Part shown: piece after piece, positions 17,158 through 20,696 of the stretch | How positions within the stretch are numbered: position 1 is the stretch's first letter | How the letters are laid out: each line of letters opens with the position of its first letter | NCBI GenBank assembly: GCA_947626345.1 | Contig: CANQSF010000001.1 | Location: forward strand, 124,001 to 188,000 | Direction: 5' to 3' | Origin: an uncultured Oscillospiraceae bacterium | GTDB taxonomy: Bacteria > Bacillota > Clostridia > Oscillospirales > Oscillospiraceae | DNA: 64,000 nucleotides | The notes under the pieces: model-generated | Seen by the model: the letters and a program-made list of their open reading frames with translations, nothing else | Told to the model about the DNA's origin: nothing | The model's database searches: none | Made by a program: the position numbers and the translations under genes

Positions 17158-17817
17158 ATGAAAAAAATGAAAAGACAGGCCGTCTGTATTTTGGCGGTGC
17201 TGGCCCTGATATTCACATTGGCCGGCTGCAGCGCCTCCGGCAGTGACAAAAAAGCGTTTTTGGGGACATGGAAGGTCACTGTCGATCTGACCGATCTCAT
17301 CAATGAGGACTTACAGAAGGGCTATGCAGGGGTCGATGAGGAATGGGTCGACCATTTCCAGTTCAGTGATGTTGACGTGACGCTCGTTTATACGTTCAAC
17401 AAGGATGATACCTATTCCATCCGCCTGGATCAGGACGTTCTGAATGCTACGGTCGATCATATGAAGGATGAATTCAAGGATGTCGCCGTGATGATCATTG
17501 AGAGTTCGATCGCGAAGTCCGGGCGTGATATGACCGTGGAGGAGCTGCTGGAATCCCAGGGGCTCGACCTGGACGGATTCATCGACAGATCAGTCGATTT
17601 TGATTCTACCATCACCAAGTCCATTGTGGACACCTTCAACGGCAACGGACAGTGGAAAGCCGAGAACGGGGAGCTGTATCTATCCAAAAGCGTCGTGAGA
17701 GAAGCGGAAGATCTGAGCGCGCTCTATGAGATCACTTCTGACGGGATCCGGCTGACCCTGCCGGAGGGCTCCGCGGATGAGATGGGAATTTACCCGCTGC
17801 TTCTGAAAAAGGCGTGA
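17158..17817 (+). CDS. Predicted lipoprotein of unknown function
   Basis: A 219-residue protein starting with Lys residues and a hydrophobic segment that ends in the lipobox LAGC (Cys about residue 23), so it is probably a lipid-anchored surface protein. The mature part is acidic and soluble, with WKVTVDLTDLINEDLQ and a C-terminal DGIRLTLPEGSADEMGIYPL that resembles lipocalin-like stress or sensor domains seen in other Clostridia lipoproteins, though I cannot name the family. Base composition is visibly lower in G+C than lysS, hinting at transfer. It begins 15 bases after lysS behind GGAGAGACAG. Confidence 0.7.
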   Translation: MKKMKRQAVCILAVLALIFTLAGCSASGSDKKAFLGTWKVTVDLTDLINEDLQKGYAGVDEEWVDHFQFSDVDVTLVYTFNKDDTYSIRLDQDVLNATVDHMKDEFKDVAVMIIESSIAKSGRDMTVEELLESQGLDLDGFIDRSVDFDSTITKSIVDTFNGNGQWKAENGELYLSKSVVREAEDLSALYEITSDGIRLTLPEGSADEMGIYPLLLKKA

Positions 17818-17952
17818 CATGCGCCGGGGAATCCAGCTTTATGCTGCTGTTCGGATGAGGCGAAGAAGCCCGCGGACTGAAAATTTTATGGCCAGACACA
17901 AAATTCAGCGGCTGTCGGGAGCGATCCCGGCAGCCGTTTCGTGATTTACCCC

Positions 17953-17980
17953 TTGCAATTCCCGTAGGAATTGGTATAAT
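17953..17980 (+). promoter_or_regulatory. Extended -10 promoter of the structured RNA
   Basis: TTGCAA at 17953-17958 and TATAAT at 17975-17980 are separated by 16 bp, with TGG directly before the -10. The predicted start is near 17987. Confidence 0.8.
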
Positions 17981-17987
17981 TGTATGC

Positions 17988-18190
17988 GTACAAGACGATA
18001 GAGGCAGGCTACGGGGTGTTGCGACCACCCCGCAGCCCTATGCAGGAGGACATGCTCCTACACAGCGTATTACGCACCCAAGCCCTATTATACCTGTTTG
18101 TCCCGCTTTTAGCAAGGGCAACAGATATTAGGTTACGTGTGTTGTGTCTGCGGTGTGGGGTTTTGCCCTGCACCGCTTTTGTCGTCTTGG
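17988..18190 (+). ncRNA. Candidate structured non-coding RNA of about 200 nt
   Basis: No credible gene lies between 17818 and 18284 (467 bases). This part has a strong promoter at its 5' end and folds well by hand. A 12-bp closing helix pairs 17991-18002 with 18178-18189. Inside it are a 4+7 bp hairpin (18007-18037), a 5-bp hairpin (18044-18059), and an 8-bp helix with one bulge (18060-18068 with 18135-18142) enclosing a stem-loop at about 18094-18124. A 6-bp G-C hairpin (18150-18176) is followed by TTTT. It could be a free regulatory RNA or the leader of the OmpA-domain gene at 18285. The branched form does not fit 6S, SRP, tmRNA or RNase P RNA. Size and shape loosely recall the raiA motif, which I cannot verify. 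Confidence 0.6.
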
Positions 18191-18284
18191 CGGGAAGGCC
18201 CCGGGGTCCAGCGCCGTCTGCTCCCCGTGGGCTGCCCTGTCAAAAACGACACGCACAGAAATATAAGGAAAGGAACGAAACAAC

Positions 18285-19835
18285 ATGAAAAAGCGCGTAT
18301 TGTCTCTGATCCTGGCGGCATTGACCCTGCTCGCTTTTTGCGCGCCGGCTTTTGCCGCGGAGGAGGCCGAGCCAGATGAAGAGGTCGGGCTCACGCCCAC
18401 CGCCAACCCCTTTGCCGCGTCTATCGTCACGGACGACAGCCTGTCCCAGACCGAGGACGCCTCGGGCATCCGGGGCGGCACCAATCAGAACGACGCAGTG
18501 CTCCTGCCCATGAACGCAAATCTCTATGGCACCGCCATGGAGGACCCGGTGTGGTATGCGTTCACAACGCTGTCGGACCCCGACATCACCTACACGTTCG
18601 TTGCAGTCAATCTGGAGGTCGACGCCGGTCAAGTGCGCTACACCCTTTATGATGCGGCGGGCGCTAAAATAGCGGGCAACTATGATGAAGGCTACTATCT
18701 TGAGGAGCGAGTAGATGACAGTGGCCGGGCGGATTCTTTCGTTCCCAAGCAGTTGGCCCCTGATACGGTCTATTATATCAACCTATGGGCGACCGAAGGC
18801 AGCATCGACTACCGGCTGAGCATCATACCCCAGGGCGTCGCCATCGAGGGCTACGCCACCACGGACAACGTGCTGGACGCCCGGGGGAGCGCCAGCGCCG
18901 CAGAGGGCCTCATCGCGCCAGGTACCAATATGGACGATGCTGGGTATCTCCCCCTGAACGCCAAGATCACCGCCTCAATCAACGATTATCACGAGCTTTG
19001 GTTCGCTTTCACCACTAACGGGGCGGAGGGAGACTACTCCATTTCCATGGTCAATGAGACTACCGGGTCAGAAAAAATAGGTATGCGGGTCGTGGATGTG
19101 TACGGCAGTACCGTCAAGGCTAACAACTACACCGATGGGTATTATGCTTACAGCAAGATAGAAAACGACGGCCGCACCGTCACGACGACTTTCAGCGGCC
19201 TGGAACTGGATACCACATACTATATCGAGCTCTGGACAGATTCCGACTCGCAAGTCCAGTACACCATGACCATCAACGCCCCGGTGCCGCCGGCCACCCC
19301 GGCGCCTGTCACGGTGGAGCCACTTATCTTCGAGACCCCCTTTGAGTTGAACGAGACCAGGGTCATGTTCGTGGGGGACAAGGCTATCTTCGTCGACGAG
19401 GAGGCCGCTAACGAGGCCTGCGCCCCGGTGGCGGAGGTCATCCTGGCCCACCCGGACCACAAAGTGCTGCTGGTAGGCACTACCGCCTCCAACGGATCGG
19501 ACGGGTATTGTCTGGATCTGTCCAGCCGTCGGGCTGCGGCGGTGAAGGACCTACTGGTGAGCGCCTATGGAGTGCCTGAGGAGCAACTGCTCACCGTGGG
19601 CCTTGGCTATAAGCTGGACCCCTTTGCCCGTGCCAATGACCTGGACGCCAACGGCAGACTCATTGAGAGTGAGGCATGTAAGAACCGGCGGGTCATCGTG
19701 TTGGACGCGGAAGACCCTATCGCCTTGGAGATACTGGGGGAGAACGCTCCGGAGGACGAGGCCGTGCCCGTGGAGAGTGAGGCCCCGGAGGGCGAAGCGG
19801 CTCCCGAAACAAGCGAAGAGGCCCCGAAGGAATAA
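18285..19835 (+). CDS. Secreted protein with OmpA-like C-terminal domain
   Basis: A 516-residue secreted protein with a signal peptide ending APAFA (about residue 24). Two related beta-rich segments follow (about 40-185 and 190-330), each with a VWYAF/LWFAF motif and a D.YYI.LW motif; they resemble pre-peptidase C-terminal (PPC) domains. After a Pro-rich linker comes an OmpA/MotB-like peptidoglycan-binding domain (about 345-485) with SSRRAAAVKDLLVSAYGVPE and ACKNRRVIVLD. An acidic Glu/Pro tail ends the protein. It probably binds the cell wall. The ribosome site is AAGGAAAGGAA, and the structured RNA candidate lies directly upstream. Confidence 0.78.
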   Translation: MKKRVLSLILAALTLLAFCAPAFAAEEAEPDEEVGLTPTANPFAASIVTDDSLSQTEDASGIRGGTNQNDAVLLPMNANLYGTAMEDPVWYAFTTLSDPDITYTFVAVNLEVDAGQVRYTLYDAAGAKIAGNYDEGYYLEERVDDSGRADSFVPKQLAPDTVYYINLWATEGSIDYRLSIIPQGVAIEGYATTDNVLDARGSASAAEGLIAPGTNMDDAGYLPLNAKITASINDYHELWFAFTTNGAEGDYSISMVNETTGSEKIGMRVVDVYGSTVKANNYTDGYYAYSKIENDGRTVTTTFSGLELDTTYYIELWTDSDSQVQYTMTINAPVPPATPAPVTVEPLIFETPFELNETRVMFVGDKAIFVDEEAANEACAPVAEVILAHPDHKVLLVGTTASNGSDGYCLDLSSRRAAAVKDLLVSAYGVPEEQLLTVGLGYKLDPFARANDLDANGRLIESEACKNRRVIVLDAEDPIALEILGENAPEDEAVPVESEAPEGEAAPETSEEAPKE

Positions 19836-19893: not shown

Positions 19894-19944
19894 ATAAAGG
19901 CACCTTGACAAATGGGGAACGGCGTGGTATTATAAAGGTACCTC
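19894..19944. promoter_or_regulatory. Paired operator-like repeats around the marR promoter
   Basis: ATAAAGGCACCTT (19894-19906) and ATAAAGGTACCTC (19932-19944) are near-identical and partly palindromic (AAGGnACCTT). Their centres are 38 bp apart. One runs into the -35 and the other follows the -10, the layout expected for autorepression by the MarR protein. The binding itself is inferred. Confidence 0.5.
19905..19933 (+). promoter_or_regulatory. Promoter of the MarR-type gene
   Basis: TTGACA at 19905-19910 and TATTAT at 19928-19933 are separated by 17 bp. Confidence 0.8.
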
Positions 19945-19973
19945 AAAAAATTACGACGGAAGGAGCGATCCCA

Positions 19974-20696
19974 ATGATGGACGATATGCGCGATATCCGC
20001 CCCGGCGCCATGCCGGAGGCCCACGGCCCTCACGGCGAGGATCACCCCCGGCCGCCTCACGGCCCCCACGGCGAGGATCACCCCCGGCCGCCTCACGGCC
20101 CTCACGGGGAGGATCACCCCCGGCCGCCTCACGGTCCTCATGGGGAGGATCACCCCCGGCCGCCCCACGGTCCCCACGGCGCGCCGCCCCCGCCGCCCCA
20201 CATCGACTGGGAGATGTATCCCTGTCTGAATACCGACGGAAAGCTCCTGGCGATGATCCGGGCCCTGGGCCACGCCAGCCGCGGCCTCTTCGACGGCCGG
20301 GGCGGGCAGGACCGGGCGCTGCGGACGCTGCCAGACGACGGCGCCATGACCCAGCGGGAGCTGACGGAGCGGCTGGGCATCCAGCCGGGTTCCGCCAGCG
20401 AGCTGGTGGGAAAGCTGGAGCGGGCGGGCCTCGTCACCCGCTGTCCCAGCGAGACGGACCGGCGCACCGCCGACATCCGGCTGACGGAGCAGGGACTTGC
20501 ACGGCGGCAGGAGCGGGCCGGCCGGGAGCAGAACGAGACGGCGGAGCTGTTCAAGGCCCTGGATGAACAGGAAAAGCAGACGCTCCTCGCCCTGATGGAG
20601 AAGCTGCACGCCTCCTGGAGCGCCCCGGCCCGCCGGAGCCGCCCCCATCCGGAGGCGGGGCCGGCAGACGGCCCCGCGGCAGAAAAAGAAGATTGA
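19974..20696 (+). CDS. MarR-family regulator with His/Pro repeat N-terminus
   Basis: A 240-residue protein. The C-terminal part (about residues 80-215) is a MarR winged helix with MTQRELTERLGIQPGSASEL, then VGKLERAGLVTRCPSETDRR and LTEQGLARR. The N-terminal part carries four tandem copies of a 12-residue unit GPHGEDHPRPPH, then a partial copy and a Pro run. This His-rich arm could bind Ni, Zn or Cu, so a metal-responsive repressor is plausible but unproven. ATG 19974 (with another ATG at 19977) follows GGAAGGAG. No obvious target gene is linked apart from its own promoter. Confidence 0.85.
   Translation: MMDDMRDIRPGAMPEAHGPHGEDHPRPPHGPHGEDHPRPPHGPHGEDHPRPPHGPHGEDHPRPPHGPHGAPPPPPHIDWEMYPCLNTDGKLLAMIRALGHASRGLFDGRGGQDRALRTLPDDGAMTQRELTERLGIQPGSASELVGKLERAGLVTRCPSETDRRTADIRLTEQGLARRQERAGREQNETAELFKALDEQEKQTLLALMEKLHASWSAPARRSRPHPEAGPADGPAAEKED
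20025..20168 (+). repeat. Four tandem 36-bp coding repeats in the marR-type gene
   Basis: Copies start at 20025, 20061, 20097 and 20133 and differ at only a few third positions. Each encodes GPHGEDHPRPPH. Confidence 0.95.

Follow-up and report, generated by a model that had tools for sequence, protein, structure and literature searches.

Attenuation by antisense RNA has been described for plasmid copy control and for a handful of single genes. Structured 5′ UTRs are also found ahead of genes for abundant secreted proteins, as in the slpA-type surface-layer genes of Lactobacillus, and in this respect they resemble the leader described here; we know of no antisense partner or terminator for surface-layer gene leaders such as that of slpA. 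In the published account, the repC attenuator of plasmid pT181 makes use of an 87-nt countertranscript (RNAI), its leader carries a terminator-like stem-loop, and a pre-emptor competes for the 5′ arm of the terminator (PMC5703833). The locus examined in the current study resembles both this system and RNAIII/repR of pIP501 in that an antisense RNA is set against a 5′ leader that carries a terminator-like stem-loop and a pre-emptor (PMC5703833). However, pT181 and pIP501 control plasmid replication genes, whereas the present element is chromosomal, occurs in multiple copies, and is located ahead of genes for secreted proteins. Given that no replication gene was seen downstream, and that there was no plasmid match by blastn, we have not placed the element in the plasmid attenuator family.

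Two other systems merit comparison. RnaG of the Shigella virulence plasmid is an antisense RNA made from inside icsA that causes Rho-independent termination via kissing hairpins, according to the accessible part of its description (PMC5394118). The likeness is that of an antisense RNA terminating the mRNA of a surface or invasion protein, but RnaG serves a single gene with an antisense RNA of 450 nt, and the same portion of that source describes no family of paralogs with diversified loops (PMC5394118). The prgQ/anti-Q system of Enterococcus pCF10 provides an example of antisense attenuation in conjugation (PMC6540685). It differs from our element in being a plasmid conjugation switch with a peptide-binding repressor.

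We consider it probable that the leader described below, which is structured on both strands, is an antisense-RNA-controlled transcription attenuator for a secreted-protein gene. Our best reading is that the element would work like the copy control of pT181, with each copy carrying its own address loop.

Anatomy of the locus

The window analysed here is a stretch of 64,000 nucleotides from an uncultured Oscillospiraceae bacterium (contig CANQSF010000001.1, positions 124,001 to 188,000). Its ORF map places an intergenic gap of 467 bases (17818–18284) between two genes, and this gap contains, in order, a sense promoter-like sequence (17953–17980), a structured region (17991–18194), and an extra hairpin reaching to 18243. 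A preliminary description of the locus had reported a gap of this size with its own extended −10 promoter, G+C-rich hairpins, and a leader position ahead of a secreted OmpA-domain gene, and all of these features were recovered. The promoter is evident as a promoter-like sequence on the forward strand with 10 of 12 consensus matches (TTGCAA, a 16-base spacer, and TATAAT preceded by TG), the hairpins are A (18007–18037), B (18041–18066) and E (18150–18176, with TTTT after it), and the forward-strand gene at 18285–19835 encodes a signal peptide and an OmpA domain. The closing helix (pairing element P1) is also present, but it measures 13 bp (17991–18003 with 18177–18189) rather than the 12 originally given. 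The 5′ strand of P1 marks the predicted 5′ end of the RNA, its 3′ strand is formed by the U-rich tail of E plus the next bases, and both are supported by covariation. Where upstream sequence of the family members described below could be scored, a sense promoter-like match of at least 9 of 12 was found in 124 of 152 copies, and the −10 lies 7–8 nt from P1 in 101 of the 152 (10 nt in the window copy).

Hairpins A and B are assigned to the reverse strand. Hairpin A is predicted to be stable as antisense RNA and is followed there by a U-rich tail, making it a candidate antisense terminator, and its loop (18019–18025) is variable. Hairpin B has near-invariant arms, with the antisense form UGUGURGGAG..CUCCUGCA, which enclose a hypervariable loop (18049–18054). 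On the sense strand, the 3′ arm of B (18055–18066) is a candidate for pre-empting E. An antisense promoter-like sequence occupies 18115–18087 of the reverse strand, with a −35 of TTGCTA (18115–18110), a 17-base spacer and a −10 of TATAAT (18092–18087). Hairpin E together with its TTTT (18150–18180, forward strand) is the predicted intrinsic terminator of the leader, and hairpin F (18187–18243, forward strand) would form only in RNA that extends beyond E. The 5′ arm of F shares bases with the end of P1, and a long hairpin closes at this position in most of the 26 copies sampled. Elsewhere in the window, an ORF at 19905–20696 carries a tandem PHGPHGEDHPRP repeat and then a MarR-family domain.

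The impression of strong structure is justified by folding of positions 17984–18192, which yields −93.9 kcal/mol compared with −68.8 (sd 4.4) for dinucleotide shuffles (z −5.7; 0 of 200 shuffles as low). Covariation among relatives is present as well. In an alignment of 96 copies (A5), 38 of the 41 pairs of P1, A, B and E exhibit changes on both sides, a count that is biased towards the family because this alignment, like alignment A7, was fitted with a covariance model built from the same RNA family, whose copies are related and non-independent. The covariation score over these 96 copies is 0.362. Shuffles give 0.171, with none of 500 matching the observed score, and sliding the partner by 1–3 columns gives 0.05–0.07. 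On each of five covariation measures the observed value was reached by none of 500 shuffles.

A search of the whole window with Rfam 15 (all 4227 families, riboswitches and 6S included) gave no match at the gathering score, in keeping with the earlier view of the RNA as unassigned, and there were likewise no matches in 20 diverse loci of the family. At a loose limit, positions 17600–18500 returned three sub-threshold matches with E values of 0.25 to 2.1. The element is a covarying RNA family absent from Rfam 15. No description of it was recognised in the literature at the level of titles and the openings of abstracts, a body of text that lies mostly outside subscription journals.

Distribution and genomic context of the family

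The element is a dispersed multicopy family and not a single gene. By blastn it occurs in 24 of 60 related genomes, all of which are among the 35 genomes of the same genus. Family scans with a covariance model built from 30 copies (R1) identified it in 26 of these 35 genomes, with up to 16 matches in each. Of 150 genomes sampled across the taxonomic family, 48 gave R1 matches, representing 39 of 106 genera. Matches were obtained in 30 of 197 genomes sampled from the order and in 7 of 291 from the class, with sporadic occurrence in other Clostridia; the family, order and class samples overlap, and the genome of the window is counted in each. That genome contains four strong copies and a weak fifth, and its sixth R1 match is a reverse-strand fragment. 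A motif scan of named genomes uncovered at least 119 stretches, of which 80 are listed. Among the matches listed, carriers are mostly Oscillospiraceae metagenome bins, many of the Lapin series, and they include the cultured Flintibacter muris DSM 110149 and Flavonifractor sp. An82.

After identical cores were merged, 153 distinct copies were assembled from 174 matches (40 of 56, 61 of 80 and 73 of 81 in three sets). Left out were 16 reverse-strand or fragment matches from the first set, 19 second loci of the same copy from the second, and 7 cut or short matches at locus ends plus 1 reverse-strand match from the third. One copy without an E segment (L164) was excluded from the promoter-distance, U-run, strand-folding and B:E tests. 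A held-out set comprises 16 copies from the order and class scans, 13 of them from other families, that are at most 83% like any aligned copy; a 17th candidate (L243) was removed because it is 97% like an aligned copy. Five held-out copies (L254–L256, L259 and L260) are close to one another, and their E segment was cut imperfectly. These distant representatives come from another family of the class and retain hairpins A and B along with the antisense promoter-like sequence. Copies of the L254 type precede a short ORF (98 aa in L254) without a significant Pfam family.

Genes downstream of the element commonly encode secreted proteins. The start of a signal peptide was recognised within 330 bases in 109 of the 139 copies with enough sequence. 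In the controls (12–16%) it was recognised for 68 of 439 genes located elsewhere and at 368 of 3000 positions chosen at random. The script used was crude, and its rule was the same for the random positions and had a stricter start requirement for the gene control. The remaining 30 copies lack a recognised signal-peptide gene. For 76 of the 137 downstream proteins, considered over their first 420 residues at most, the most frequent Pfam families are BspA-type LRR_5 (17), SLH (11) and LRR_8 (8), with copper-amine-oxidase N-terminal domains (5) and RHS repeats (4) next; choline-binding repeats occur too. Among the exceptions are a 60-residue ORF in genome G178, an AMP-binding enzyme and an acyltransferase. 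A check for type I toxin–antitoxin character gave mostly long secreted products, and the short ORFs, judged by eye alone, are not hydrophobic-looking.

Several loci deserve separate mention. Genome G178 carries 16 copies (L087, L088, L100–L113). Fifteen of these copies are nearly identical, and many lie at the end of a contig. Of the eight G178 copies with enough downstream sequence, six precede a small ORF that begins MVDYKKMYL or MADYKKMYL; it is 38 aa long in one and is cut by the contig end in two, and it matched no significant family in Pfam or NCBIfam. A repeated palindromic sequence (GGCTCCCCTGAAAGGGGAGC...) is located upstream of many of these copies. Behind three other copies (L004, L005 and L153) are short ORFs with a leader of the Gly-Gly type (LDDAVLEAVSGG or similar), which we take to resemble exported peptide precursors, and a comparison of the L004 ORF with Pfam and NCBIfam again yielded no significant family. 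The weak fifth copy in the genome of the window (L064:2392–2623, minus strand, E 3.7e-7; genome G000) lies 23 nt ahead of a helix-turn-helix gene (HTH_17, excisionase-like), which is followed by a phage-type integrase gene, and this context hints at a possible origin or use in mobile elements. The window element has no blastn match among 72,556 plasmid records or 50,697 phage records. The motif was seen in two IMG/VR contigs; judged by eye, a nearby ORF resembles a tyrosine recombinase in one (L250), and the nearby ORFs look chromosomal in the other (L251).

Structure on two strands

Drift to G.U within an RNA base pair reads as A.C on the opposite strand, and counts of such cells over the 96 aligned copies separate the helices of this element into two groups. 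P1 (182 G.U versus 28 A.C) and E (178 versus 5) are of the sense type, with 360 G.U and 33 A.C cells together. Hairpin A (12 G.U versus 133 A.C), hairpin B (0 versus 64) and the extension of B (0 versus 97) are of the antisense type and jointly contribute 294 A.C and 12 G.U cells. Contrary to the rest of A, the three pairs at its base are of the sense type (23 G.U versus 3 A.C).

Folding of each segment on both strands gives a similar division. The antisense form is more stable for A in 88 and for B in 94 of 95 copies, and the sense form is the stabler one in 93 of 95 copies for E, in 76 of 92 for F and in 85 of 95 for P1; a middle hairpin, C, leans less clearly towards sense (66 of 95). The strand difference for A, B and E is 5.2–6.5 kcal/mol, compared with 1.4–1.6 kcal/mol in the same direction for shuffled segments, and the energy gap is therefore due in part to base composition. 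In the held-out set, all 16 copies favour the antisense strand for B and 14 of 16 the sense strand for E, with A antisense-favoured in just 10 of 16.

The antisense promoter-like sequence is well conserved. An exact TATAAT is present in 135 of 153 copies, the spacer is 17 bases in 143, and the −35 begins with TTG in 149. A score of at least 10 of 12 was attained by 133 of the 153 copies, compared with 8 of 765 shuffles, and TATAAT with a TTG-type −35 was found in all 16 held-out copies. The match is weak or displaced in 7 of the 153. Thus, as in pT181, a promoter-like sequence lies within the leader and is convergent with the sense one, as judged from its sequence and conservation. In two copies of one genome (L078:2472–2655 and L079:4502–4684, both G012), each ahead of a very long secreted protein, the middle part of the element is shortened, and the promoter scan found no antisense match in its usual place.

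From this sequence we predict an antisense RNA of about 90 nt (17991–18080, reverse strand), whose start is placed 7 nt past the −10 and whose end is placed at the U-rich tail. Read from about 18080 to 17991, it folds with −47.0 kcal/mol (z −5.5), and like the pT181 countertranscript it is a short predicted RNA with stem-loops facing the complementary loops of the leader. Following A on the antisense strand, at least 5 T occur in some stretch of 8 bases in 81 of 95 copies, and fewer than 5 T are found in any 8 bases in the other 14. Given that 3–4 bases separate the stem from the beginning of the U-run, we regard this candidate antisense terminator as weaker than E.

The preliminary description had viewed the element as one compact multibranched RNA, a view that fits poorly with hairpins A and B being more stable, and varying by G.U, on the opposite strand, and with a promoter-like sequence inside the structure. 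Because of this antisense preference and the internal promoter-like sequence, we judge two overlapping RNAs that run in opposite directions to be a more likely product of the locus than one folded RNA. The antisense promoter-like sequence at 18115–18087, hairpin F at 18187–18243, the multicopy occurrence and the strand-specific structure were not part of that description.

Putative attenuation and competing explanations

Hairpin E is followed by a mean of 7.1 T in 10 bases, such that by sequence the leader has a predicted intrinsic terminator (E plus U-run) ahead of the gene, as do pT181-like attenuators. Hairpin B in its antisense form and hairpin E in its sense form share the motif GUGURGGR..YCCUGCA, and therefore the arms of B can pair with the arms of E. 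In transcripts cut at the end of the 5′ arm of E, pairing of the 3′ arm of B with this arm (B3′:E5′) is present in 81 of 95 minimum free energy (MFE) folds, compared with 31, 41 and 35 when B is shuffled. If E is penalised, the best fold contains B3′:E5′ in 92 of 95 copies and B5′:E3′ in 90 of 95. Its cost relative to the MFE is 4.1 kcal/mol, compared with 8.2–9.3 with B shuffled. The finished leader favours E (88 of 95 MFE folds), and for this reason its default state may be OFF. These folds predict that hairpin B could keep terminator E from forming while the RNA is still being made.

We also considered B3′:E5′ as a conserved helix and rejected this proposal, since covariation does not support it (permuted partners at least as good in 1998 of 2000). 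A C-A mismatch occurs at one position in 59 copies, and the wobbles are of the antisense type (23 G.U, 74 A.C). Among 12 copies with changed B arms, the copy’s own B3′:E5′ clearly beats foreign partners only in L094, L117, L097 and L115. For B5′:E3′, the arms of one copy pair slightly better with each other than with permuted partners (1 of 2000), though these arms are almost invariant. In sum, pairing of a pre-emptor with the 5′ arm of the terminator, a further feature of pT181-like control, is favoured by energies relative to shuffles and not by covariation, and because covariation is absent we retain B3′:E5′ as a transient or kinetic pre-emptor suggested by the energies.

Loop B is almost random at 1.79 bits, compared with 0.19 and 0.24 bits for the B arms. 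Among 80 of the loci this invariance of the arms is partly due to selection, because the pattern that found them fixes the B arms and leaves the loops free. There are 94 different B loops among 96 copies. Even in the 15 copies from G178 that average 89% identity, all 15 B loops differ, and loop B identity over 46 same-length pairs is 0.39. Four copies in genomes G086 and G143 (L089, L091, L114 and L118) have a longer B loop that holds GTTAAGGC or GTTAAGCC. In loop A, U is the second base of 48 of the 58 loops that are seven bases long, a feature reminiscent of the U-turn loops of plasmid antisense systems. Kissing between loops A and B of the same copy was rejected, as permuted loops are the more complementary ones: counting Watson–Crick and G.U pairs, 297 of 300 permutations reach or exceed the observed value.

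From these features we infer the following course of events. The sense promoter would start a leader RNA with its 5′ end inside P1. Once the 5′ arm of E has just been made, the 3′ arm of B, as pre-emptor, would likely pair with it and block E, and RNA polymerase would then read past hairpin F and into the gene. The RNA of about 90 nt, made from the internal antisense promoter, would bear the stable hairpins rcB and rcA; with their loops it would recognise the matching loops of the leader as this emerges, and would sequester B. With B sequestered, E would fold with its U-run and cause transcription to stop early. Given that loop A, and above all loop B, vary between copies, an antisense RNA is expected to act solely on the gene of its own copy, and such self-specific RNAs would therefore amount to up to 16 separate switches per genome.

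The alternative that survives best, although we consider it unlikely, is that the leader is sensed by a protein or small ligand and that the antisense transcript is secondary. The arms of B and E are near-invariant (entropy 0.19–0.41 bits), which is more than pairing by itself demands, and the motif shared by E and rcB (GUGURGG..CCUGCA) could be a binding site for one factor that binds both; the complementarity of B and E would then be a by-product. However, a near-random loop B and a well-kept antisense promoter-like sequence are not expected of a ligand pocket, and neither the window nor the 20 diverse loci matched an Rfam riboswitch.

A quite unlikely explanation holds that the RNA from the antisense strand is a trans-acting small RNA that works through its variable loops, the sense leader being a sponge or by-product. 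It would agree with the antisense preference of A and B and with a loop B that is distinct in nearly every copy, as for separate targets, but it is at odds with the sense preference of P1, E and F, and it leaves the siting ahead of signal-peptide genes unexplained. Nor does loop B find a ready target nearby, since its complementarity to its own flanks or gene is not above that of permuted loops in six regions; its identity to the upstream 300 bases is slightly raised (6 of 100 permutations as high). Under antisense control of the leader, a loop has to match nothing other than its own antisense.

We likewise judge it improbable that the element serves as a 5′ UTR that stabilises or insulates abundant mRNAs for surface proteins, with a 5′ end locked by P1 and hairpin F near the ribosome-binding site. 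P1 does start near the predicted start site, and F is sense-favoured and kept in most sampled copies, but this would leave the antisense promoter unexplained, along with the hairpins that favour the antisense strand, the hypervariable loops and the U-run after E. Finally, up to 16 copies per genome, the near-identical G178 copies with many at contig ends, and the weak copy ahead of helix-turn-helix and phage-type integrase genes might point to a dispersed DNA element (MITE-like or a recombination site) whose hairpins work as DNA, a reading we find highly implausible in view of the promoter-plus-terminator anatomy on both strands, the position 5′ of genes, the opposite wobble preferences of neighbouring hairpins, and the lack of blastn matches among the plasmid and phage records.

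We therefore return to antisense-controlled attenuation and its wider consequences. More tentatively, and with doubt outweighing confidence, we propose that gut Clostridia possess genome-wide sets of orthogonal, self-addressed antisense switches, wherein one circuit has been copied before many surface-protein genes and the loops used for recognition have been driven to differ, so that each gene has independent and possibly bistable control. A chromosomal family with up to 16 members per genome, near-invariant machinery and random-looking loops would amount to a naturally occurring collection of orthogonal RNA switches, and it opens the question of how antisense specificity diversifies following duplication. 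The asymmetry between G.U and A.C also suggests that such counts may expose two overlapping RNA genes where a search of a single strand calls one. If our reading is true, the cell surface would be varied at the level of RNA with the DNA left unrearranged, and the family would offer gut bacteria a simple means to vary their surface.
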